Source: Acidovorax sp. GBBC 1281 (GTDB taxonomy: Bacteria > Pseudomonadota > Gammaproteobacteria > Burkholderiales > Burkholderiaceae_C). From it: a stretch of 64,000 bases of DNA. Made by a program: the position numbers and the translations under genes. Of this stretch, positions 9,698 through 21,648 are shown one piece after another (position 1 is the stretch's first letter; each line of letters opens with the position of its first letter). The stretch covers positions 248,001 to 312,000 of the forward strand of contig NZ_CP097269.1 in NCBI RefSeq assembly GCF_028473645.1, given 5' to 3'. The notes beneath the pieces were generated by a model, which did no database searches, was not told the DNA's origin, and saw only the letters and a list, made by a program, of their open reading frames with translations.

Positions 9698-12583
9698 ATG
9701 CTTCAAGGGATTCAATCTAACTTTGACATGCTGCGCTCTTACGAAGAGCAGCTTTGGCGGTTGGGCGCATTGGCGGAGCGGTACTTCGCGGAGGACCCGA
9801 ACACTAGCCTGCTGAAGCTCAGGCAATTCTCAGAAACTCTGGCGCAGTCTCTGGCGGCCAGAGTCGGTTTTTTGACGAACCCCGCCGAAACCCAATACGA
9901 ACTCATACGGCGCTTGCAGAACGAGGGCGCCTTGCCGAGAGAGGTAAAGCAGGTCTTCGATCAAATCCGCATCAATGGCAATGCCGCAAACCACGCCCTG
10001 GCCGGGAACCATGCGGGAGCGTTGTCCACACTCAAGCTTTGCTGGCAACTGGCGCTGTGGTTCCATCGCACCTTCAAAGATGCCAACCATCGATCTGGCC
10101 CCTTTGTTCCACCTCAACCACCCAGCAACGAAACAGCGGACCTGCAAGCCGAGCTGGCACGGCTGCAGCAGGCGGTAGCAAGCTACCAAGCTCAAAATGA
10201 GCAAGCCGGTGCAGAACTTGCGCACACGAGAACCCAGCTTTCGTCATTAAGTGAAGAGCGTGCCGTTTGGGAGCAGTTGGCCACAGAGGCCGATGCGGCC
10301 AAAGCGCGCTTGGCAGACCAACTTTCTGCCTTGCAAGCTGCGGCTGTTGCAGCCCCTGCGACGCAATACGCTTCCTTGCTGCAGTCCGCCAACGCAGCCG
10401 CCACGAAAGTCCAGCTGGACGAGGCGGAAACCCGCCGCATCATCGACGCCCAGTTGCGGCAGGCCGGCTGGGAGGCCGACAGTGAAAGCTTGCGTTACAG
10501 CAAAGGGGCACGCCCAGTGCGCGGCCGCAACATTGCCATCGCCGAATGGCCCTGTGATGGCTGTTCCGCCGACTATGTGATTTTTCAAGGGCTCACGCCG
10601 ATGGCCGTGGTCGAGGCCAAGCGAAAGAACATTGACGTATCAGGCGCCCTGCAACAAGCCAAACGCTACAGCCGCACATTCACCGCTGGCGCAGAGGTTC
10701 AACTGCATGATTGCAACTGGGGCGCGCAGTCTCAATACCGCATCCCGTTCGTCTTCTCTGCCAATGGGCGCCCTTACTTGCGGCAGTTGTCTACCAAGAG
10801 CGGCATCTGGTTCTGCGACTTACGCCACCCCGAAAACCGCAGTCAGGCGCTGGATGGCTGGTACAGCCCTGATGGACTCAAACATCTGCTCGCTGCGGAT
10901 GAGGTCAAAGCACACCAGCAACTGGACAACACCGAGTTCAACTTCGGCTTTCCACTGCGCCCCTATCAACAAAAGGCCATCCGTGCCACCGAGGCACGAA
11001 TAGGCCAGGGCCAGCGCGACATCTTGTTGGCCATGGCAACAGGCACTGGCAAAACCAAAACCTGTATTGCCTTGATCTACCGCCTGCTCAAAGCGCAGCG
11101 CTTCAAACGCATCTTGTTTCTGGTGGATCGGTCGGCGTTGGGCGAACAAGCGGCCAACTCCTTCAAGGACACCCGCATGGAGCGGCTGCAGACCTTCGCC
11201 GAAGCCTTCGGCATCAAAGAGCTGGACGCACAGACGCCAGACGACGACACCGCTGTTCACATTGCCACCGTGCAGGGCATGATGCGGCGCGTGCTGTTTT
11301 CTGCCGATGGCCTAGCCCCACCCACGGTGGACCAATACGATTGCGTGGTGATCGACGAATGCCACCGCGGCTACACGCTGGACCGCGAACTGTCAGACAC
11401 CGAACTCAGCTTCCGGGGCTTTGACGACTACATCTCCAAGTACCGCCGGGTGCTCGACTACTTCGATGCCGTCAAGATCGGCCTGACCGCCACTCCGGCC
11501 CTGCACACGACCGAGATATTTGGTGCCCCGGTATTCACCTACAGCTACCGCGAAGCTGTGGTGGATGGCTACCTGGTGGACTACGAGCCGCCCATACAGA
11601 TCCACACCGAGCTGTCGAAAGGGGGCATGCACTGGAAGGTGGGGGAGGAGGTCAAGATCTACGACGCGCGGCGCAATCAGATCGATCTTTTCAAGGCACC
11701 CGATGCCATAGCCCTCAACGTCGAAGACTTCAACCGCAAGGTCATCACCCGCTCCTTCAATGAAGTGGTGTGCAATTACCTGGCCCAAGAGATCGACCCC
11801 ACGGGCAAGCACAAAACCCTCATCTTCTGCGTCAACACCGATCACGCCGATTTGGTGGTGGACGTGCTGAAATCCGCTTTTGAAGCCCGGTACGGCAGCG
11901 TGGAGGACGATGCCGTCATCAAAATCACCGGCAATGCCGACAAGCCGCTGGAGCTGATTCGCCGCTTCAAAAACGAGCGCCTGCCCAATGTGGCCGTGAC
12001 CGTGGACTTGCTCACCACCGGTGTGGACGTGCCAGAAATCTGCAACCTCGTCTTCCTGCGCCAGGTCAACAGCCGCATCTTGTTCGATCAGATGCTGGGC
12101 CGGGCGACTCGCCTGTGCGACTTTGACGGCGACCCCAAAGACAGCTTTCGCGTGTTTGACGCCGTGCGCATTTTTGAAGTCATTGGCAACATGACCGCCA
12201 TGCGCCCCGTTGTGGTCAACCCCAGCATCTGCTTTGCGCAGCTGGAGCAAGAAATGGTGGCCGTGCAAGACCCCGCCGCACGGGAGCTAGTGCGCCAGCA
12301 GTTCCTGGCCAAGCTGCAAGTCAAGAAACGCCATCTCGACGCCCAAGCTACGCAAGACTTTGAAACCAAGGCCGGCATGACGCCCGAAGCCTTCATCCAA
12401 AAGCTGCGCACCCTGTCGGTGGACGAAATCGCCAACTGGTTTATTCAAAACCCTCGATTGGGCGAAATACTCGACCGCAAGCGCGATGGTGGCGGACAGC
12501 CCCTGTTTATCTCCGACCACCCTGACGCGTTGGCAGGCATCGAGCGTGGCTACGGCGCCGCCAGCAAGCCTGAAGATATTTGA
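9698..12583 (+). CDS. hsdR: type I restriction enzyme R subunit (frameshifted before its C-terminal domain)
   Basis: Motor and endonuclease subunit of a type I restriction-modification complex. The 961 visible residues contain an N-terminal DUF4145-like helical region (about 1-140), a coiled-coil linker (about 145-230), a nuclease core with VVEAKRK near 303, then the SF2 motor: Walker A ATGTGKT near 446, DECH near 553, LTATP near 598 and the C-terminal RecA motifs GVDVPEICNLVF and QMLGRATR. The frame stops just after the conserved GYGAASKPEDI, where the C-terminal EcoEI-type domain should continue; that domain is present in another frame at 12580. See the finding on the one-base frameshift. 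Without the C-terminal domain, assembly with HsdM/HsdS is doubtful. Confidence 0.92.
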   Translation: MLQGIQSNFDMLRSYEEQLWRLGALAERYFAEDPNTSLLKLRQFSETLAQSLAARVGFLTNPAETQYELIRRLQNEGALPREVKQVFDQIRINGNAANHALAGNHAGALSTLKLCWQLALWFHRTFKDANHRSGPFVPPQPPSNETADLQAELARLQQAVASYQAQNEQAGAELAHTRTQLSSLSEERAVWEQLATEADAAKARLADQLSALQAAAVAAPATQYASLLQSANAAATKVQLDEAETRRIIDAQLRQAGWEADSESLRYSKGARPVRGRNIAIAEWPCDGCSADYVIFQGLTPMAVVEAKRKNIDVSGALQQAKRYSRTFTAGAEVQLHDCNWGAQSQYRIPFVFSANGRPYLRQLSTKSGIWFCDLRHPENRSQALDGWYSPDGLKHLLAADEVKAHQQLDNTEFNFGFPLRPYQQKAIRATEARIGQGQRDILLAMATGTGKTKTCIALIYRLLKAQRFKRILFLVDRSALGEQAANSFKDTRMERLQTFAEAFGIKELDAQTPDDDTAVHIATVQGMMRRVLFSADGLAPPTVDQYDCVVIDECHRGYTLDRELSDTELSFRGFDDYISKYRRVLDYFDAVKIGLTATPALHTTEIFGAPVFTYSYREAVVDGYLVDYEPPIQIHTELSKGGMHWKVGEEVKIYDARRNQIDLFKAPDAIALNVEDFNRKVITRSFNEVVCNYLAQEIDPTGKHKTLIFCVNTDHADLVVDVLKSAFEARYGSVEDDAVIKITGNADKPLELIRRFKNERLPNVAVTVDLLTTGVDVPEICNLVFLRQVNSRILFDQMLGRATRLCDFDGDPKDSFRVFDAVRIFEVIGNMTAMRPVVVNPSICFAQLEQEMVAVQDPAARELVRQQFLAKLQVKKRHLDAQATQDFETKAGMTPEAFIQKLRTLSVDEIANWFIQNPRLGEILDRKRDGGGQPLFISDHPDALAGIERGYGAASKPEDI

Positions 12584-13101
12584 AAGCGTTCAAAGACTTC
12601 ATCACCAGCCACGGCAACGAGTTGCCTGCACTCATCACCGTGCTCACCCGCCCGCGCGACCTCACGCGCAAGCAGCTTAAGGAGCTCGTGCTGGCGCTGG
12701 ACCAGGCTGGCTTTACCGAAACCCGCCTGGCCACCGCCTGGCGCGAGCTCAGCAACCAGGACATTGCCGCCCGCATCATTGGCTTCATCCGACAGGCCGC
12801 TATGGGCGACGCCCTGCTGCCCTATGCCGAGCGCGTAGACCATGCCCTGCAAGACCTGCTGGCCAAGCCCTTGGTAGGCAAACCCTGGACGCAACCCCAG
12901 CGCGACTGGCTCAAACGCATTGCTGCGCAAACCAAAGCCAATATGCTGGTAGACCGCGAAGCGCTGGACGACCCAGACCTTATATTCAAGCGCGACGGCG
13001 GGGGCTTTGCCCGCCTGGACAAACTCTTCAACGGCCAGCTCCAGCCCGTGCTGGAAGCCTTTAACGACGCACTGTGGGCGGGCGACCAAAAGTCCGCTTG
13101 A
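12580..13101 (+). CDS. HsdR C-terminal domain (EcoEI_R_C-like), separated by frameshift
   Basis: 173 residues matching the C-terminal domain of EcoEI/EcoAI-type R subunits, with hallmarks TRPRDLTRKQLKEL, LDQAGFTETRL, NQDIAARIIGFIRQAAMG and WTQPQRDWLKRI. This domain contacts the methyltransferase core. A TTG at 12580 overlaps the TGA of the upstream hsdR frame (TTGA), so reinitiation as a separate polypeptide is possible, but adding one base near 12577 fuses the two frames into a canonical R subunit. It is therefore most simply the tail of a broken hsdR. Confidence 0.85.
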   Translation: MKAFKDFITSHGNELPALITVLTRPRDLTRKQLKELVLALDQAGFTETRLATAWRELSNQDIAARIIGFIRQAAMGDALLPYAERVDHALQDLLAKPLVGKPWTQPQRDWLKRIAAQTKANMLVDREALDDPDLIFKRDGGGFARLDKLFNGQLQPVLEAFNDALWAGDQKSA

Positions 13102-13124
13102 CCGCGTTTCCCGCATCCCCCTAC

Positions 13125-14711
13125 ATGACTGCAATCAACCCTGCGGCGTCAGACATCGTCGCCAAGCTCTGGAACCTATGCAACCTGCTGCGCGACGACG
13201 GAGTGACCTACCACCAGTATGTGAGCGAGCTCACCTACCTGCTCTTCTTGCGCATGATGCAAGAGACTGGCCGAGAAGGCACCTTGGTCATCGACAAAGC
13301 GCCCAGGAAGGGCGAGTCAAAAGTAAGAATGGACGGCACCCGTTGGGCCGACCTCATGGCCGCGTCGGCCCCCGACCGGCTGGACGCATATAAAGAACTG
13401 TTGTTGGATTACGGCCTGCACGGCAGTGGCAGCGTGCAGCAGATTTACGCCAACGCCAGCACCTTCATCACCAAGCCCGCCACCTTGTCCAAGCTGGTGG
13501 TAGAGATCGACAAGCTCGACTGGTACAGCGTGCAGCGCGACGACCTGGGCGACCTGTACGAAGGCCTGCTGGAGCGCAACGCCAGCGAAAAGAAAAGCGG
13601 CGCAGGCCAGTACTTCGCCCCCCGCGATTTGATCGACAGCATCGTTGCCGTGATGCAGCCCACGCTGGACGATGTGATCCAGGATCCCGCCTCGGGCACC
13701 GGTGGCTTCCTGATTGCCGCCAACAACTACCTGCGCACCAAGTATCCGCCAGACGAACGCACTGAAGTGCAACAGCGCAAATACCGCCACAGCACCTTTT
13801 ACGGCATGGAGCTGGTGCAAGACACCCATCGCCTGGCACTCATGAACATGCTGCTGCACGGCATCGAAGGCGGCATACAGTTTGGCGACACCCTGGGCGA
13901 AGAGGGCACCCGTCTGCCGCAGGCCACGCTCTCCTTAAGCAACCCGCCCTTTGGCACCAAAAAAGGCGGCGGCCTGCCCACCCGCACCGATTTCACCTAC
14001 CCGACCACCAACAAGCAGTTTTGCTTCTTGCAGCACATCTACCGCAACCTGGCCCCCGGTGGCCGCGCTGCCGTGGTGCTGCCCGACAACGTGCTGTTCG
14101 AAAGCAATGTGGGCGCGGACATACGCCGCGACCTGATGGACAAGTGCAACCTGCACACTGTTCTAAGGCTGCCCACTGGCATCTTCTACGCCCAGGGCGT
14201 CAAAACCAACGTGCTGTTTTTCACGCGCGGCAAGAAAGACACGGGCAACACCAAAGAAGTGTGGGTGTACGACATGCGCGCCAACATGCCCCAGTTCGGC
14301 AAGCGCACCCCCTTCACCCGCGACTACTTCCGCACCAAGCCTGATGCCCCCGTCAGCGTACCCCGCGACAAGTTTGAAGACGTGTTTGGCGCTGACCCCT
14401 GCGGCGGCCCCACAGCCCTGGCCCAGCGCGTGGACACGGGTGAGGCAGGGCGCTGGCGCAAGTTCACGCGCGAACAAATCAAGGCCCGTGGCGACAACCT
14501 GGACATCAGCTGGCTCAAAGACGACAGCGCCGAAAGGGCAGAGGCCCAACGCGACGAACCCGCACTGGTGGCCCGCTTAGTGATGCGCGAGCTGAACGGC
14601 GCCATGGCTGACCTGCGCAGCCTGCTGGAAGCGCTGGGCGAAGACCCGGACGCTGCGCTGGAAGACCTGCTGGTTGACGACGGCACTACGGCAGACGAGG
14701 CCCAGCCATGA
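13125..14711 (+). CDS. hsdM: type I DNA methyltransferase subunit M
   Basis: A 528-residue N6-adenine methyltransferase subunit. The N-terminal helical domain contains LRDDGVTYHQYVSELTYLLFL, the SAM motif I is DPASGTGGF near 187, and the catalytic motif IV is NPPFG near 272. It modifies host sites and, with HsdR, forms the restriction complex. ATG at 13125 is 23 bp after the hsdR tail and starts at the usual family N-terminus; an in-frame start at 13074 would overlap hsdR. Frame is intact. Its stop overlaps the YhcG gene by four bases (ATGA). Activity depends on an S subunit, and hsdS here is interrupted. Confidence 0.94.
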   Translation: MTAINPAASDIVAKLWNLCNLLRDDGVTYHQYVSELTYLLFLRMMQETGREGTLVIDKAPRKGESKVRMDGTRWADLMAASAPDRLDAYKELLLDYGLHGSGSVQQIYANASTFITKPATLSKLVVEIDKLDWYSVQRDDLGDLYEGLLERNASEKKSGAGQYFAPRDLIDSIVAVMQPTLDDVIQDPASGTGGFLIAANNYLRTKYPPDERTEVQQRKYRHSTFYGMELVQDTHRLALMNMLLHGIEGGIQFGDTLGEEGTRLPQATLSLSNPPFGTKKGGGLPTRTDFTYPTTNKQFCFLQHIYRNLAPGGRAAVVLPDNVLFESNVGADIRRDLMDKCNLHTVLRLPTGIFYAQGVKTNVLFFTRGKKDTGNTKEVWVYDMRANMPQFGKRTPFTRDYFRTKPDAPVSVPRDKFEDVFGADPCGGPTALAQRVDTGEAGRWRKFTREQIKARGDNLDISWLKDDSAERAEAQRDEPALVARLVMRELNGAMADLRSLLEALGEDPDAALEDLLVDDGTTADEAQP

Positions 14712-15799
14712 GCCAGCAGGTTTCCGCAGCGGCAGACGGACTGCCGACCAACCTGCCGACGACCCTGCACACCGAACTGCGCACACTGATCGCCAGCAGC
14801 CGCCAGCGCCTGGCCGGTGCAGTGAATGCCGAACTCACCCGCCTGTACTGGGCGGTGGGCCTACGCTTGGCCACCGAAGTGCTGGGCAGCGAGCGTGCCC
14901 AATACGGTAGCCAGCTGCTGGGGCACCTGGGCCAACAGCTCTCGCAAGAGTTTGGCCGGGGTTTTGAAGCCCGCAACCTGCGCCGCATGGTCAAGTTTGC
15001 GCAGGCTTTCCCCAGTGCAGAGATTGTGTCGACACTGTCGACAAAATTGAGTTGGAGCCACATGGTGGCTATCGTGGCCCTTAAAGCGCCCGAGGCGCAG
15101 CAGTTCTACGCTCGCCAAGCCGCACAAGACGGCTGGAGCGTGCGCGAGCTGGCCCAGCAGATAGACCGCAAAGCATTCGAGCGCAGTGCCATTGCCCATG
15201 CCAACGCTGGCGCCCCCGTTATCCCTGCCGTTGATGCGCTGGTGCCAGCACAGGGGCAGACGGTGGGCACTGTTTTCAAAGACCCGTACTTTTTGGACTT
15301 TTTGGGCCTGCGCCAGGGCCATGATGAGGCCGACCTGGAAGCCGCCATCTTGCGCCAGCTAGAAGCCTTCATCCTGGAGCTAGGCCGGGGTTTTGCGTTT
15401 GTAGAGCGGCAAAAGCGCATGGTTATCGACGGGGAGGACTTTTACCTGGACCTGCTTTTCTACCACCGTCGCCTGCGCCGCCTGGTGGCCATCGAGCTGA
15501 AGCTGGGCCGCTTCAAGGCCGCGCACAAAGGCCAGATGGAGCTGTATTTGAAATGGCTGGACCAGCATGAACGCCAGCAGGGAGAGGAAGCGCCCATCGG
15601 CCTCATCCTGTGTGCCGAATCCAGCCGCGAACAGGTGGAGTTGCTGCAAATGCACAAAGACGGCATCACCGTGGCCGAATACTGGACCGAGCTGCCACCC
15701 AAGGCCGAGCTGGAACAACACCTGCACCAGGCCCTGCTGGAAGCGCGTGAGCGGCTGGCGCGGCGGGGGGTTTTGCTGGATGGGGGCGAGGATGAGTGA
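14708..15799 (+). CDS. YhcG/DUF1016 family PD-(D/E)XK nuclease-like protein
   Basis: A 363-residue YhcG-type protein: N-terminal DUF1016 region (ARNLRRMVKFAQAFP, LSWSHMVAIVAL) and a C-terminal PD-(D/E)XK fold with FYLDLLFYHRRLRRLVAIELK, where Asp near 246 and the ELK near 262-264 are the expected metal ligands. The segment GQMELYLKWLD follows. Such genes are frequently inserted between hsdM and hsdS. Here it overlaps hsdM by four bases and hsdS by eight, so it is clearly co-translated with the type I system. Its function in these loci is not established; a role as nuclease or accessory restriction factor is inference. Confidence 0.88.
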   Translation: MSQQVSAAADGLPTNLPTTLHTELRTLIASSRQRLAGAVNAELTRLYWAVGLRLATEVLGSERAQYGSQLLGHLGQQLSQEFGRGFEARNLRRMVKFAQAFPSAEIVSTLSTKLSWSHMVAIVALKAPEAQQFYARQAAQDGWSVRELAQQIDRKAFERSAIAHANAGAPVIPAVDALVPAQGQTVGTVFKDPYFLDFLGLRQGHDEADLEAAILRQLEAFILELGRGFAFVERQKRMVIDGEDFYLDLLFYHRRLRRLVAIELKLGRFKAAHKGQMELYLKWLDQHERQQGEEAPIGLILCAESSREQVELLQMHKDGITVAEYWTELPPKAELEQHLHQALLEARERLARRGVLLDGGEDE

Positions 15800-16283
15800 G
15801 TTGCCGAATAACTGGATCGAGACAGAAATTGGCAATCTCTGCTCGCTGAAGAATGGAAGAGCGTTCAAACCCAGCGAATGGCAATCCAGTGGATTGCCAA
15901 TTGTCCGCATTCAAAACCTCAACAATCCTACCTCCACCTACAACTACTTTCAGGGCGAAGTGGACGAGCGCAATCGCTTGCGCGGTGGGGAGCTACTCTT
16001 TGCTTGGTCCGGAACGCCTGGCACTTCCTTCGGTGCCCACGTTTGGCGCGATGGAGACGCTGTACTAAATCAACACATTTTTCGTGTTGATTTTGATGAG
16101 ACGTTATTGGACAAGCGTTTTTTTCGCTCGGCCATCAACCAAAAGCTGGGCGAGTTAATTGATGTTGCCTATGGTGGAGGGCGCTGTTGCACAAATCGAA
16201 TTGCAGACGGCATGACCCCAACCCCAGACGGACCTATGCCACAGCAGTCACCGACACGGTGTGAGGACGGCCGATCTGACTGA
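15792..16283 (+). pseudogene. hsdS: hsdS 5' fragment, interrupted by IS element
   Basis: Start of the specificity subunit that chooses the DNA target of the type I system. MSELPNNWIE begins the first target-recognition domain; GLPIVRIQNLN and LLFAWSGTPGTSFGAHVW are typical HsdS TRD segments. At 16180 the frame runs into an IS element after ...DVAYGG and ends at an IS stop at 16283. Deleting the IS and one copy of the 9-bp target duplication joins the frame exactly to GLRHVTKG on the other side, so the gene was intact before insertion. The start overlaps the YhcG gene, as in a tight operon. Confidence 0.9.
16171..16179. repeat. 9-bp target site duplication, left copy
   Basis: ATGGTGGAG, identical to 17231-17239 on the other side of the IS. 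Nine bases is the duplication length known for the IS903 subgroup of IS5. Confidence 0.92.
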
Positions 16284-17230
16284 ACCGATTGAGCAAGGCC
16301 ACGCGGACATGCAGCTCCACAACCTGGCGGTCGAACGTGCGCGCGATCACCCGTTCGCCCAGTCGCTTGAAGCAGTGCATCTTCGTCTCCACAAGGCTGC
16401 GCCGGTGGTAGCCGCTCCACTTCTTCCAAATGCCGCGACCCAGGCGCTGGCACGCCCGAATGGCCTCATTACGATGCGCCGAGCCCGGACTCGACTTCTT
16501 CCAATGGCTGGCGTTCTTGCGGGGCGGGATCACCGCCATCGCGTGCCGCTCGGCAATGGCGTCCAGGCAGGCGCGCGTGTCGTAGGCGCCATCGGCACTG
16601 ACGCTTTCGATGGATTCGTCAGTGGGAATCTGAGCCAGCAACCCGGGCAACATCGGCGCATCCCCAATGGCGTTGCTGGTCACCTCGATGGCGCGTATTT
16701 CCAGCGTCTGCGCGTCGATGCCCAGATGGACCTTGCGCCATTCGCGCCGGTATTCAGCACCATGCTTCTTGCGTTTCCACTCTCCTTCGCCCAGGAACTT
16801 GATGCCGGTGCTGTCCACCAGCAACTGCAGCGGCGAGTTGGTTCGCTGGTAGCTCAGTTCGACCTGCAAGGTCTTTTGGCGCCGGCAAACAGTGCTGAAG
16901 TCAGGTACCGGCCAGTCCAGCTTTGCCAGCCGCAGCAGGCTCTGCACCATGCCCAGCGCCTGTCGCAAGGGCTGGCCGAACAGGCACTTGATGCTCAGGC
17001 AGAACTGGATTGCTGCGTCCGAGAAGGTTCGGCTGCGTCCACGCCTGCCGGTCGGCGTGCCAAACCACTGCATGCCCTCATCTAGCCACATCGTCAACGA
17101 GCCTCGCGCTTTCAGCGCCGCGTTGTACGCCTTCCAGTTCGTCGTGCGGTACTTGCTCCGCTGCCTGTTCTTCGTCTCTGTCACGCAGTCAGTCTACGGG
17201 CATCAGCATCGCGATTTGTGCAACAAAGCC
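16180..17230 (-). mobile_element. IS5-family (IS903-like) insertion sequence, copy A, 1051 bp
   Basis: Complete element. The left end starts GGCGCTGTTGCACAAATCG and the right end, read inward, GGCTTTGTTGCACAAATCG: 17 of 19 positions match as terminal inverted repeats. It encodes one transposase on the minus strand and is bounded by the direct repeat ATGGTGGAG. It lies inside hsdS. Near its right end a GTG (17218) is in frame with the downstream half of hsdS. It is related to, but not identical with, the element at 29630-30682. Confidence 0.93.
16234..17184 (-). CDS. IS5 family transposase (copy A)
   Basis: A 316-residue DDE transposase. The catalytic residues are visible in LLVDSTGIKFLG (D), SADGAYDTRACLD (D) and SLVETKMHCFKRLG (E), the last containing the Y-(2)-R-(3)-E-(6)-K-like signature of IS4/IS5 enzymes. 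Length is normal for the IS903 subgroup (about 307). No frameshift is seen, so the element is probably still able to move. It is transcribed opposite to hsdS. Confidence 0.93.
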   Translation of the reverse strand: MTETKNRQRSKYRTTNWKAYNAALKARGSLTMWLDEGMQWFGTPTGRRGRSRTFSDAAIQFCLSIKCLFGQPLRQALGMVQSLLRLAKLDWPVPDFSTVCRRQKTLQVELSYQRTNSPLQLLVDSTGIKFLGEGEWKRKKHGAEYRREWRKVHLGIDAQTLEIRAIEVTSNAIGDAPMLPGLLAQIPTDESIESVSADGAYDTRACLDAIAERHAMAVIPPRKNASHWKKSSPGSAHRNEAIRACQRLGRGIWKKWSGYHRRSLVETKMHCFKRLGERVIARTFDRQVVELHVRVALLNRFSQIGRPHTVSVTAVA

Positions 17231-18702
17231 ATGGTGGAGTGGGATTGCGTCATGTGACCAAGGGGGTGTTTGAACGCACTTTGGTAGCTTTGCCGCCACG
17301 CGCTGAGCAAACTCGCATCGCCAACCAACTCGACACCCTGCTTACCCGCATCCAGTCCTGCAACGACCGCTTCGACGCCATCCCTGCCTTGCTCAAGCGT
17401 TTTCGGCAGGCGGTGTTGGAGGCGGCCTTGAATGGTGCCTTCAGTGAAAACGCAGTGGAGGGCGGAGCGCCAAGAGCCTGTATATCGTCGATTGCATCGG
17501 TCGGGACCGGGTCAACACCCCTGCGTTCTAACGCCCAGTTTTTTGCAAGTACCGGCACTCCGTGGATAACCAGTTCTGCGACGTCCGAGGCCATCATTCA
17601 ACGAGCCAGTGAGTTCGTTACGGCAGCCGCTATTTCTGCGCACCGCCTCAAGATCTATCCAAAAGGTACTCTTCTGGTAGCGATGTACGGGGAAGGAAAA
17701 ACACGCGGTCAAGTTGCCGAACTAGGAATAGATGCAACCATCAACCAAGCCTGCACTGCAATCCGTGTTGACAACGCAAAAGCGCTGACAGCTTTTGTGA
17801 AGTTGGCTCTGCAGGCGAACTACCTCAATATGCGCGAGCTTGCTGAGGGAGGCAACCAGCCAAACCTCAATCTGTCCAAGGTCAAGGAGTTTGAGATTCC
17901 TCTGCCCCCTTTGGATGTGCAGACCAAAATCGTCCGCCGTGTAGAAGCCCTATTCGCCCTGGCCGACCGCATCGAAGCCCGCGCCAATGCAGCCCGAAAC
18001 CAAGCCCAATGCCTGAGCCCCTTGGTCTTGGCCAAAGCCTTTCGAGGCGAGCTGGTGCAGCAAGACCCGCAAGACGAGCCCGCTAGCGTGTTGCTGCAGC
18101 GCCTTGCCGCGACCAAGCCCGCCAAAGCGAAGGCATCGCGTGGGCGGCCACGCACCAAGACGCAAGAGCTTTTTGCCACGCCCGAAGTGGTGAAGCCCGA
18201 TGCGACTGGTTTGTCCGATGGTATGTGGGCAGCGCCTGACGTGGTGGATGAGCATGCGGTAACGGCCCTGCTGGTGGCTGTGCTCAAGGCCTGGGGCGGC
18301 CCCATGCTGCAGATGCAGGCCCGTCTTGCCGCCGTGCTGTGCCTGCAACCCCGCCAGATGGCGGCGGCGCTGCCTGCAAAGCAAGCCGCGCAATGGCAAC
18401 GGCTGGTGGGCCCGGCGGCGGACCCGCTGCCCACGCAGGTGGCACGCCTGCAGCCCGCTACCGACAGTGCTTGGCGCAAAGCCCTGCTGGGCATGCGGGC
18501 GCGTGGGGACTTGGTGGAAGAAGGCTCTGGGCCGCAGGCCACCTGGGCTTTAGGGATTGGCGCGGGCCAGATTAAAACGGCAGGTTGGCCAGAGGGCCGT
18601 GCGGGCTGGGTGGTGGCGTACCTGCGGGCCCATGGTGCCGAGGCCATCTTGCCGTTGCTGGAGACATCGACTGTGGAGTTTGTGCATGCAAGAGCAGCCT
18701 GA
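17218..18702 (+). pseudogene. hsdS: hsdS 3' part: TRD2, conserved regions and C-terminal extension
   Basis: Continuation of the specificity subunit after the IS. Genuine hsdS sequence begins at 17240; an IS-borne GTG at 17218 reads MQQSHGG and then enters it in frame, giving a possible 494-residue truncated protein. It retains the central conserved region (LPPRAEQTRIANQLDTLL), the whole second TRD, and the distal conserved region (LPPLDVQTKIVRRVEALF). After FRGELVQQDPQDEPAS there is an unusual C-terminal extension of about 190 residues beyond the normal HsdS end. Its stop lies 17 bp inside the following ATPase gene. Whether the truncated protein is made is unknown. Confidence 0.85.
17231..17239. 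repeat. 9-bp target site duplication, right copy
   Basis: ATGGTGGAG, identical to 16171-16179. Confidence 0.92.
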
Positions 18703-20659
18703 ACTGTTTGAACGCCCTGCCTTGTGGGTAACGCCGCCAGCGGGTGCCAAGCAGCCTGCGCTGTGGGTGCGGCGGCTCACCATCTGGAAAGAGCCGCACG
18801 TGCCGGTGCGGACGGTGGAGCTTCGGCCAGGGCTGAACTTTGTGTGGTCGCCCGACCCGGCGGATTTTGGTGGCCGCAACGATGCGGGCGCGTTGGGGCA
18901 CGGAGCGGGAAAGACGCTGTTTTGCCGCCTGCTGCGTTATTGCCTGGGCGAAGACCAGTTTGCGCCTGAGGACCAACGGCTGAGCATCAGCGCCGAGTTT
19001 TTAAACGGTTGGGTTTCGGCAGAGGTGGTGCTGAACGGCACCCCTTGGGGCGTGTTGCGACCTCTGGGCGTGGGGCGCGGGCATTTTGCGGTGGCGAATG
19101 TTTTGCCGGAACAACTGTTTGACCGGCAGAACGAGCCGACCGGGATGAAATCCCTGCTGAACGCCATTGAGACCCAAATCCTCACGCCGCAAGTGGCCGC
19201 CTTGATGCCGGTGGATCATCCGCACGATGCCTGGCGGGTGGCCCTGGCATGGCTCACGCGTGACCAGGAATTCCGGTTCGACCATGTGCTGGATTGGCGT
19301 GCGGCTGAATCTGCGTCGGAATCGCCCACCCGATCCATGTCGCGCAGCCGTTTGCAAGAGGCTTTGCGCGGCTTGATTGCAGCCATATCCCCCGAAGAGA
19401 TCGAGTTGCAGCAGGCGATTGCCTCCAAGACCGAAGCCCACAAGGCCAAGACCTTGGAGGCGGGGCGCAGGCAGTGGGCTTGCGAGCGGCTGCGCCTGGA
19501 GATCATCCGCAATCTGGACTTGGTACCCACCGATGTGCCCGAGGGGCGGTTGTGTATTGGCGTGCTTCGCCAGGCCGCCAGCCAGAAGCTGGCGCAGGCA
19601 TCCAGGGTGAGCCCGGGGGTGGATGTCTCTAACCTGGGTGACTTGAGGCAACGCTGGCGCGACAGCGAGCAGCGTGTGAGCGAGCTGGAGAAACAGTTGG
19701 CCGTGCTGGAAGCCAGCTTGCCCATTCGCGAAGCGCTGCTCAGGCAATACCAGTCAGAGCTACCCGCCAGCTCGGCCAGGGTGCGGGGTGCGGAAGTCTC
19801 TGCCTGCCAAATCTGCGAAGTGCCTATTGACCGCGTGTTGGCCCAAGGGTGCAAGCTCTCCCACAAACTGCCCGACTTTGATGGCCTGCGTGCGCGTCAC
19901 GACGCATTGGTGAAGCAGATGGATGAGGCGAAGAAAGCCATCGGGGATGTCCGTGTCGAGATCACGTTGCTCAAGCAGCAGCTACCACCGGCACGCTCCG
20001 CACGCGATTCCTTGCGGCAAGCACTGAACAAAGCTGAAAAGCTCAACGAAGGCCGTTCCACCAGTTGGTTCAAGGTGACCCGAAGCCTGGACGACATCAA
20101 GCGCCTGGCGCGTGATTGGGACGACTGGGACCAAGCCATCTCTGCCGCTGCAAAGCTGGTGGCACAGATGGAGGACAACCGGGACCGCATGGGTGCGTTC
20201 CGTGAGCAGAAGGGGCTGGTTTTTGATCGCTTGTCGAACTACTTCGATGCGGTGATTCGGACTGTGGTGGGGCCCATGGCGTCAGGGCGCGTTTCGCTGG
20301 ACGGCAATGGCGTGAAGCTAGCCGTTCAACTGGGGGGCGAGCGGTCAACCGCTGCCATTGAGTCGCTCAAAGTGATTGCGTTCGACATTGCCGTGATGGG
20401 CATGAGCATGGAAGGCACTACCCACCTGCCCGCATTCCTCGTGCATGACAGCCCCCGTGAGGCTGATTTGGGGCTCAGCGTGTACCACCGCCTTTTCAGC
20501 ACGGTCGCAACGTTGGAAGCCCAAGAAAACTCCGTTTTTCAATACATCGTCACGACCACGACGCAGCCACCGGCACAGTTCCAGAAGCAGCCCTGGCTGC
20601 GCCTTGAGCTGCGTGGCTCGCCATCCACCGAACGCTTGTTGCGTTGTGATCTGCCATGA
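18686..20659 (+). CDS. Rad50/SMC-like ABC ATPase with CxxC hook, defence-associated
   Basis: A 657-residue protein that I read as an SMC/Rad50-type ATPase, possibly near the DUF2326/YydD group. The N-terminal half has a P-loop, GHGAGKT, near 71-77. The middle (about 220-520) is charged and helical, and contains CQIC at 374-377 between two helical arms, the position and pattern of a Rad50 zinc hook. The C-terminal half has a signature-like segment (ESLKVIAFDIAVMG) and a Walker B/D-loop-like FLVHDSPREAD. It overlaps the end of hsdS by 17 bp and the next gene by four, so it belongs to the same transcription unit. Proposed role: DNA-end or structure-sensing ATPase of a defence module; function not shown. 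Confidence 0.72.
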   Translation: MQEQPELFERPALWVTPPAGAKQPALWVRRLTIWKEPHVPVRTVELRPGLNFVWSPDPADFGGRNDAGALGHGAGKTLFCRLLRYCLGEDQFAPEDQRLSISAEFLNGWVSAEVVLNGTPWGVLRPLGVGRGHFAVANVLPEQLFDRQNEPTGMKSLLNAIETQILTPQVAALMPVDHPHDAWRVALAWLTRDQEFRFDHVLDWRAAESASESPTRSMSRSRLQEALRGLIAAISPEEIELQQAIASKTEAHKAKTLEAGRRQWACERLRLEIIRNLDLVPTDVPEGRLCIGVLRQAASQKLAQASRVSPGVDVSNLGDLRQRWRDSEQRVSELEKQLAVLEASLPIREALLRQYQSELPASSARVRGAEVSACQICEVPIDRVLAQGCKLSHKLPDFDGLRARHDALVKQMDEAKKAIGDVRVEITLLKQQLPPARSARDSLRQALNKAEKLNEGRSTSWFKVTRSLDDIKRLARDWDDWDQAISAAAKLVAQMEDNRDRMGAFREQKGLVFDRLSNYFDAVIRTVVGPMASGRVSLDGNGVKLAVQLGGERSTAAIESLKVIAFDIAVMGMSMEGTTHLPAFLVHDSPREADLGLSVYHRLFSTVATLEAQENSVFQYIVTTTTQPPAQFQKQPWLRLELRGSPSTERLLRCDLP

Positions 20660-21648
20660 GCGACATCAAACTCTTCCGCCTTACCAGCGGCACCGCCACC
20701 GAGCTGCAAGGCAGCGCCTCCGATCTGGAAAAGCCTCTGCAAACGCTGATCGAAGCCAATCTGCAACCTTTGCTCAACATCCGCTTCATCGCCAGCGAGC
20801 ATTCCACAGGCAAGACGCACGGCGGGCGCATCGATTCGCTGGGCCTGGATGAAAACAATTGCCCCGTCATCCTGGAATACAAGCGGTCGGTGGGCGAGAA
20901 CGTCATCAACCAGGGTTTGTTCTACCTGGACTGGTTGCTGGACCAAAAGGCAGAGTTCAAGCTTCTGGTGCTGGACAAGCTGGGCGCCGCTGCTGCCGAC
21001 GCCATTGACTGGAGCGCCCCCCGCGTGGTGTGCATTGCGGCGGACTTCACCAAGTACGACGGCCACGCGGTGCAGCAGATTGGCCGCAACATCGAGCTGA
21101 TTCGCTACCGGCAGTTCGGGGGTGACCTGCTCTTGTTGGAGTCGGTGAATGCAGGCAGTGATGCGGGCAGCAAAGCGACAGCAGTCAAGTTGCCAAAAGC
21201 GCCCGTGAGCAAGCCGGGAGCGGACGCAGTTTTCGTGCCGTTGGTGTCTGATTCCCTTGGTGTCAAGGGCACCGGCCCAGATAAATCGGTTGCCGAAGTG
21301 TTGGCCAAGATGGCTGCGCCTGTGCAGTTACTGCTTGCCTCGTTGGACGGCTACATGCTTTCGTTGGGTGACGATGTACAGCGCAAAGAGCTGCGCTTGT
21401 ATGTGGCCTTCAAACGGCTGAAAAACTTTGCCACCGTGGTTCCGCACCGGAAAAGTTGCCTTTTGCTGTACTTGCATTTGGACCCTGGCACAGCCGTGCC
21501 GGCGTTGGCGAACGCTTGGGATGTGACGAACATCGGACATTGGGGAACTGGCAATTTGGAGCTTACGCTGAGCACGCAAGCCGATTTGGAGGCGGCCAAG
21601 CCGTTCATCATGGCCGCTTATGAAGGGCGGTGCGCGATCTCCAGTTGA
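20656..21648 (+). CDS. DUF5655 protein with N-terminal PD-(D/E)XK-like nuclease domain
   Basis: A 330-residue two-domain protein. Residues about 1-165 resemble the NucS/DUF91-like PD-(D/E)XK fold: GGRIDSLGLD, then VILEYKR (E-x-K) near 72-77. After a linker, residues about 210-330 (VAEVLAKMAAPVQLLL, VAFKRLKNFATVVPHRK, LDPGTAVP) match my memory of DUF5655. It starts with ATGA overlap with the ATPase gene and is the last gene of the run. With the ATPase it would form a motor/nuclease pair similar in logic to Rad50-Mre11. Function is inference. Confidence 0.75.
   Translation: MSDIKLFRLTSGTATELQGSASDLEKPLQTLIEANLQPLLNIRFIASEHSTGKTHGGRIDSLGLDENNCPVILEYKRSVGENVINQGLFYLDWLLDQKAEFKLLVLDKLGAAAADAIDWSAPRVVCIAADFTKYDGHAVQQIGRNIELIRYRQFGGDLLLLESVNAGSDAGSKATAVKLPKAPVSKPGADAVFVPLVSDSLGVKGTGPDKSVAEVLAKMAAPVQLLLASLDGYMLSLGDDVQRKELRLYVAFKRLKNFATVVPHRKSCLLLYLHLDPGTAVPALANAWDVTNIGHWGTGNLELTLSTQADLEAAKPFIMAAYEGRCAISS

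Follow-up and report, generated by a model that had tools for sequence, protein, structure and literature searches.

We analysed a 64,000-nucleotide stretch of the Acidovorax sp. GBBC 1281 genome (contig NZ_CP097269.1, positions 248,001 to 312,000), hereafter the window, in which a type I restriction-modification (RM) operon carries an LmuB/Rad50-like ATPase and a DUF5655 nuclease at its end. The constant partner of this ATPase is not the nuclease but the tail encoded by the adjacent upstream gene. Tail and ATPase co-occur in several phyla, and in ARMADA-type operons the same tail ends the methyltransferase and the same ATPase comes right after it. A first-pass annotation of the window had proposed the ATPase and the nuclease as one new defence module and missed that the HsdS tail is the conserved partner of the ATPase. 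Known systems contain relatives of every part. No description was found, in the open PubMed Central (PMC) full texts searched, supplements lying outside the scope, of the tail on HsdS or methyltransferase that accompanies this ATPase in two kinds of system.

The tail of the upstream gene

The tail occupies about 175 residues at the HsdS C-terminus (18160..18699, + strand; residues ~315-494 of the 3′ hsdS open reading frame, ORF). It is winged-helix-like and common with the ARMADA-type methyltransferases, and we propose it as a docking or adapter domain. It recurs at the extreme C-terminus of the ATPase's upstream gene, reaching up to 107 bits to methyltransferases in a single-sequence phmmer search. 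A single scan of GTDB species genomes with two peptide patterns yielded 211 relatives, of which the best 80 serve as the ATPase loci, 81 with the window. In a profile search the upstream gene had the tail in 76 of the 80 loci, plus the window, with the tail of L043 cut by a contig edge. The loci without it comprise two that start at a contig edge (L059 and L065) and two real misses (L063 and L070), hence 76/78.

The reverse search found the tail in 3 of the 399 family genomes, all three with the ATPase adjoining, with scoring limited to 8 candidates per genome. On plasmids, the ATPase comes directly after the tail in 6/6 tail records, and 4/10 ATPase records, the more distant ones, have no tail match. 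Tail presence tracks the ATPase and not the nuclease. The ATPase also overlaps its upstream gene more than by chance, because the window's 17 bp overlap recurs in 64/71 related loci when starts are inferred by alignment; the others overlap by 29 bp (five loci), 20 bp (one) or 14 bp (one). A cruder start-motif method left 33 of the 81 loci without an answer and gave 17 bp in 43, 29 bp in 4 and -1 in 1.

The upstream gene encodes a PglX/DrmMI-like methyltransferase in 67 of the 81 loci and HsdS in 7, with the remaining 7 assigned to neither. Within the 10 kb and contig extent available per locus, a BrxHII/SNF2-like helicase lies in front in 60/80, a DruE/YprA-like helicase likewise in 54/80, and an HNH protein lies behind in 52/80. 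Further upstream, full YprA-like genes of 1715-1810 aa were fetched in all six of L110-L115. In the relatives' loci the YprA, BrxHII-like and PglX-like genes stand in ARMADA type I order, and this order, as given in the main text of a preprint, matches most ATPase loci (Bell et al. 2025, PMC12458937). Checked for the C-terminal Vsr-type nuclease, an ARMADA type I feature, the YprA-like protein of L110 returned only DEAD, MZB and Helicase_C from Pfam. In the window's own genome YprA was not found at E 1e-30, and the genes upstream of the ATPase are hsdRMS. The main text of PMC12458937 has no SMC, ABC, Rad50, Lamassu, HsdS or DUF2326, and its supplements, outside the scope, may list the ATPase.

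The ATPase was matched in 13 of the 399 family genomes, namely 3 of the restriction type and 10 distant ones (27-35% identity). All ten distant ATPases sit in ARMADA-like operons. This distant branch (L100-L109) follows ARMADA-like methyltransferases with a tail of ~170 aa and is without the second hook cysteine. Aligned with the window-type tail, the distant-group tail gave a probability of 0.2%, and the two are therefore treated as different tails. The seven HsdS-type ATPases form one clade (SH-aLRT, the Shimodaira-Hasegawa-like branch test, 100) in a tree rooted by midpoint only. Because this clade lies nested among the methyltransferase types, the simplest history, as far as a midpoint root allows, would be one transfer from an ARMADA-like setting into a type I operon.

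Loci that lack the ATPase serve as natural experiments. A YprA search over 389 family genomes gave 29 matches, 11 of them partial or weak and 18 near full length, with L251 among the latter running into a contig edge. The 18 loci have the ATPase in 10 and none in 7, and 1 is cut by the contig end. Past the shared methyltransferase motif, the ten proteins with a distant ATPase extend by 167-183 aa of the different tail and the seven without an ATPase by 8-17 aa, so the tail is absent in 7/7 ARMADA-like operons without the ATPase. The 59 measurable methyltransferases with the window-type tail (8 of 67 dropped) extend by 171-229 aa; as these had been selected with the tail profile, the fair figure for them is 76/78. 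The methyltransferases of L018, with the ATPase, and L250, without it, align over 1117 columns at 76% identity (59% in the last 216), and that of L250 stops where the tail of L018 starts. Directly after the methyltransferase in four ATPase-free operons (L250, L252, L253 and L256) comes a protein of 420-463 aa to which no kind was assigned.

The HsdS proteins show the same trend. From 49 loci, 45 could be measured; L146, L148, L154 and L155 gave no motif, and six of the seven HsdS-type ATPase loci entered, as L004 starts inside hsdS. Ten HsdS have tails of at least 92 aa, each followed by an ABC ATPase (10/10), and 35 have tails of at most 33 aa, followed by an ABC-type gene in 3, when the next gene was checked on all ORFs. 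These three exceptions (L190, L198 and the weak case L193) have tails of 18, 27 and 32 aa, respectively, and a next gene with an ABC-type Walker A. Neither a long tail nor an ABC neighbour is present in 32/45. The Fisher value of 2e-8 was computed with 2/35 instead of 3/35 short-tail exceptions, and the counts ignore relatedness; 12/45 were reached via the ATPase or the nuclease, and the unselected 33 hold one long tail.

Different tails go with different ATPases. The HsdS of L003 and that of L145 share 78% identity over 322 aa, beyond which they have unlike tails beside unlike ATPases, LmuB-like and Septu PtuA, respectively. In L145, L147 and L157 the position right after hsdS is taken by Septu, both PtuA and PtuB with strong PADLOC scores, and in L148 and L154 by weaker PtuA-like ATPases. 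The HsdS of L145, L147 and L157 has its own C-terminal tail of 99-106 aa. A locus reached without selection, L199, has a PtuA-like neighbour and a 92-aa HsdS tail.

In fold, the tail weakly matches chain C of an LmuABC entry. From its size we take this chain to be LmuC. Foldseek returned no match to the tail at E 0.001 or better, and a tail-to-LmuC link looked for at the sequence level was not found.

The ATPase, the nucleases and the damaged operon

The ATPase gene (18686..20659, + strand) starts with ATG at 18686 inside hsdS, whose stop ends at 18702, and encodes 657 aa with the motifs GHGAGKT (residues 71-77), CQIC (374-377) and FLVHDSPREAD (584-594). The predicted structure (pLDDT, the model's own confidence, 88.5) combines two ABC half-heads with two long helical arms and a loop bearing the CxxC hook. 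The first-pass annotation's Rad50/SMC-like ATPase on a type I RM operon is thus borne out by the motifs, by the model with its ABC head and hook and by its presence in several genomes, and the ORF reading agrees with its coordinates, its three motifs and its overlaps of 17 bp and 4 bp. Pfam matches the chain to DUF2326 only and PADLOC to LmuB at E 9e-13. The nearest solved folds are YydD and the Lamassu LmuB, whose chains rank 2-5 by Z in the structure search.

Over 91 alignment rows the hook cysteine C374 is kept in all and C377 in 80, being missing in the 10 distant rows and one other. At Walker B, D588 is kept in 91/91, and residue 589, the usual glutamate, is S in 79, C in 10 and other in 2; the window copy reads D-S instead of D-E. 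A comparable E-to-Q change is reported for LmuB, in the part of the source consulted (PMC10586767). Without the usual catalytic glutamate, this ATPase would probably be a slow, long-lived ATP clamp. The ATPase was not found in the phage records searched, and DUF2326 appears in the full text of open PMC papers only in ones unrelated by title.

The DUF5655 nuclease (20656..21648, + strand; 330 aa) shares 4 bp with the ATPase gene and is matched by PADLOC PDC-S18 (E 4e-133) and Pfam DUF5655 (E 3e-8). Its N-terminus is of the NucS-like PD-(D/E)XK kind, with NucS matches in Pfam at sub-threshold level only. The D-ExK site is retained: D60, E74 and K76 show at least 98% conservation over 121 rows, comprising the window and the best 120 homologues listed, all close. 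DUF5655 was not found in the full text of open PMC papers.

This nuclease adjoins the ATPase in 4/7 restriction-type loci but in 4/81 loci overall. It was matched, partly by partial matches, in 25 of the 399 family genomes, and 14 further nuclease-match regions have hsd genes in 10 and this ATPase in none. The window nuclease is 78% identical to one in an ATPase-free locus versus 72% to one beside the Methylibium ATPase. Full-length copies also come after Septu in L145, with one gene between, and in L147; L154 and L157 have only a nuclease fragment. With an adjacency of 4/81 and the nuclease present in ATPase-free hsd regions, the unit of ATPase and DUF5655 nuclease proposed at first pass is not supported, and a conserved pair of the two was rejected.

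The operon runs in the order hsdR (split), hsdM, YhcG-type nuclease, hsdS (split), ATPase and DUF5655 nuclease, and library scans found HsdR, HsdM and HsdS, the type I RM components, all present. The main part of hsdR (9698..12583, + strand; 961 aa; NCBIfam PRK11448, E=0, model 3-959) stops early, and its C-terminal part (EcoEI_R_C; 12580..13101, +; Pfam PF08463, E 4e-36; PRK11448 model 962-1120) lies in a different frame. This split at 12583/12580 is a single ORF of 1134-1150 aa in the relatives L002, L003, L005 and L013. The hsdM gene (13074..14711, +; PADLOC MTase_I, E 1e-188; Pfam N6_Mtase) and the YhcG/DUF1016 PD-(D/E)XK nuclease gene (14708..15799, +; Pfam YhcG_C, E 3e-48; PADLOC PDC-S02, E 2e-138) are open.

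By ORF reading, the hsdS 5′ fragment (15792..16179, +) is broken off at the end of an insertion sequence (IS) element (~16180..17230, strand unassigned). The element has near-identical terminal inverted repeats with an exact 14-bp match (16185-16198/17212-17225), a DDE_Tnp_1 transposase by Pfam (16234-17184, - strand) and ATGGTGGAG on either side. We take its IS5-family name from the transposase type. The insertion is clean, flanked on both sides by a 9-bp repeat, and the 3′ part of hsdS (17231..18702, +; Pfam Methylase_S, E 3e-21; PADLOC Specificity_I, E 6e-60) retains one target-recognition domain and the tail. Both hsdR and hsdS are open in L002, from Hydrogenophaga sp. NFH-34, in L003, from Methylibium rhizosphaerae, and in L005. 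The first-pass picture of an intact ATPase and nuclease beside broken RM genes is right for hsdS and hsdR but not for hsdM and the YhcG gene.

Several related loci carry other insertions or neighbours. In Myxococcota a YhcG-type nuclease comes directly after the ATPase (L007:3108-4382 and L061:11977-13152), and the window has its copy between hsdM and hsdS. The gene after the ATPase in L008 (L008:12031-15849) encodes 1272 aa with a reverse transcriptase match of borderline strength. Between the BrxHII-like helicase and the methyltransferase of L006, L010 and L069 is inserted a protein of ~530 aa, of Schlafen/AlbA_2 type by Pfam for the L006 copy.

Mechanism and alternatives

Starting from the co-occurrence, the gene order, the ATPase fold and the conserved catalytic sites, we lean moderately toward a Lamassu-like clamp that is docked by the tail on a DNA-recognition complex and that, upon foreign DNA or cut ends, licenses nearby nucleases. 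A type I RM operon would have acquired the clamp ATPase along with an adapter domain fused to the HsdS C-terminus. The tail may bind the ATPase heads, and the hook-dimerised ATPase would thereby be held on the DNA-recognition complex. The trigger might be either this complex engaging unmodified foreign DNA or HsdR making ends on such DNA.

The ATPase would then close on the DNA or its ends and license the nucleases nearby, presumably the DUF5655/PDC-S18 and YhcG proteins here and the HNH protein in many ARMADA-type loci. The outcome would be a second strike after restriction, stronger or suicidal. The contact, the trigger, the choice of nucleases and the anti-phage action are what we infer in this scheme.

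More tentatively, at a little less than even chances, the recognition subunits of different restriction-like systems may carry interchangeable C-terminal plugs, each matched to a downstream SMC/ABC ATPase family. Plug and clamp, as LmuB and a fused LmuC, would make a portable cassette moved between ARMADA methyltransferases and HsdS, coupling sequence-specific recognition to a Lamassu- or Septu-type response.

The main rival, though unlikely, is a PrrC-like guard, in which the intact RM complex silences the ATPase-nuclease module via the HsdS tail and a phage anti-restriction protein that disables RM releases a suicide effector. An ATPase held on HsdS by a tail is as compatible with sequestration as with recruitment. 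PrrC itself, in the parts of the reports consulted, is sequestered in a type I enzyme and freed on T4 infection (PMC3874165, PMC2610378), which counts for the guard. However, our ATPase is without an anticodon-nuclease part, being DUF2326 only in Pfam with a chain that ends 32 residues after T625, and in ARMADA-type loci the partner is a methyltransferase with helicases instead of HsdR. Moreover, the window's RM genes are broken yet the ATPase and the nuclease stay open, which would be costly with a strong latent toxin.

Somewhat less likely still, the ATPase could aid modification or target search, such as scanning, bridging or telling self from foreign ends by HsdS or methyltransferase, rather than control an effector. 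The constant partner being a methylation or specificity subunit and not the nuclease agrees with such a role. The seven ARMADA-like operons without ATPase and tail and the 32/45 HsdS with neither do not, nor does the known defence system Septu in the same slot behind hsdS in L145, L147 and L157. Least probable is the first-pass view of an independent Lamassu-like pair, in which the DUF5655 nuclease takes the LmuA role and lies with the LmuB-like ATPase behind hsdS by accident: the 4 bp overlap of two intact genes, the PADLOC LmuB match and the LmuB fold speak for it, but the adjacency in 4/81 loci only, the ATPase-free hsd regions with the nuclease (10/14), the tail that tracks the ATPase instead and the absence of an LmuA match and of a separate LmuC gene all speak against it.

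The docked clamp, if correct, accounts for the way in which restriction operons couple their accessory ABC-ATPase defence modules to the RM machinery. The tail on HsdS or methyltransferase would be a sequence mark that predicts such coupling, ARMADA type I would gain an accessory part and the cooperation of RM and abortive systems would become a simple question of tail deletion.

Comparison with known systems

Rad50-Mre11 shares the head, the coiled coil and the hook but the partner of our ATPase is HsdS or methyltransferase, and no Mre11-like match was found by Pfam among the eight window proteins scanned. PrrC/EcoprrI and RloC likewise have an ABC ATPase, with a zinc hook in RloC, and a possible link to type I RM, and PrrC is held by the RM enzyme. 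They differ in that the window has a dedicated HsdS tail and separate DNase-like genes. An identity with RloC or PrrC was rejected, as no anticodon-nuclease domain is present. The PADLOC candidates PDC-S18 and PDC-S02 are matched by the window nuclease and YhcG genes, respectively. We take these labels to denote single-gene candidates, implying no ATPase partner.

Septu (PtuAB) resembles our case in lying directly behind a tailed hsdS and, in L145 and L147, ahead of the DUF5655 nuclease, but has another ATPase family and another, shorter tail. Lamassu (LmuABC, DdmABC or ABC-3C) shares the ATPase of ~650 aa, the CxxC hook seen in many of its members, the LmuB-like fold and the replaced Walker-B glutamate, though the replacement is mostly S here and Q in LmuB. 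It also differs by a separate small LmuC gene, which some Lamassu systems do without and for which the hsdS/ATPase overlap leaves no room on that strand; the LmuC-like portion would instead form part of HsdS or methyltransferase by fusion. LmuA is not among the PADLOC matches listed for the seven window proteins scanned, where the nuclease is PDC-S18. With neither an LmuA match nor a separate LmuC, the label of Lamassu proper was rejected.

Unlike ARMADA type I, the window operon has neither the helicase pair nor a PglX-like gene, while in 67/81 loci the ATPase comes after a tailed PglX/DrmMI-like methyltransferase, the point of resemblance to that system. The first-pass annotation had raised whether close homologues of the ATPase already belong to a named system. 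They do in part, sitting mostly in operons like the ARMADA type I ones of the preprint's main text (PMC12458937) and having an LmuB-like fold.
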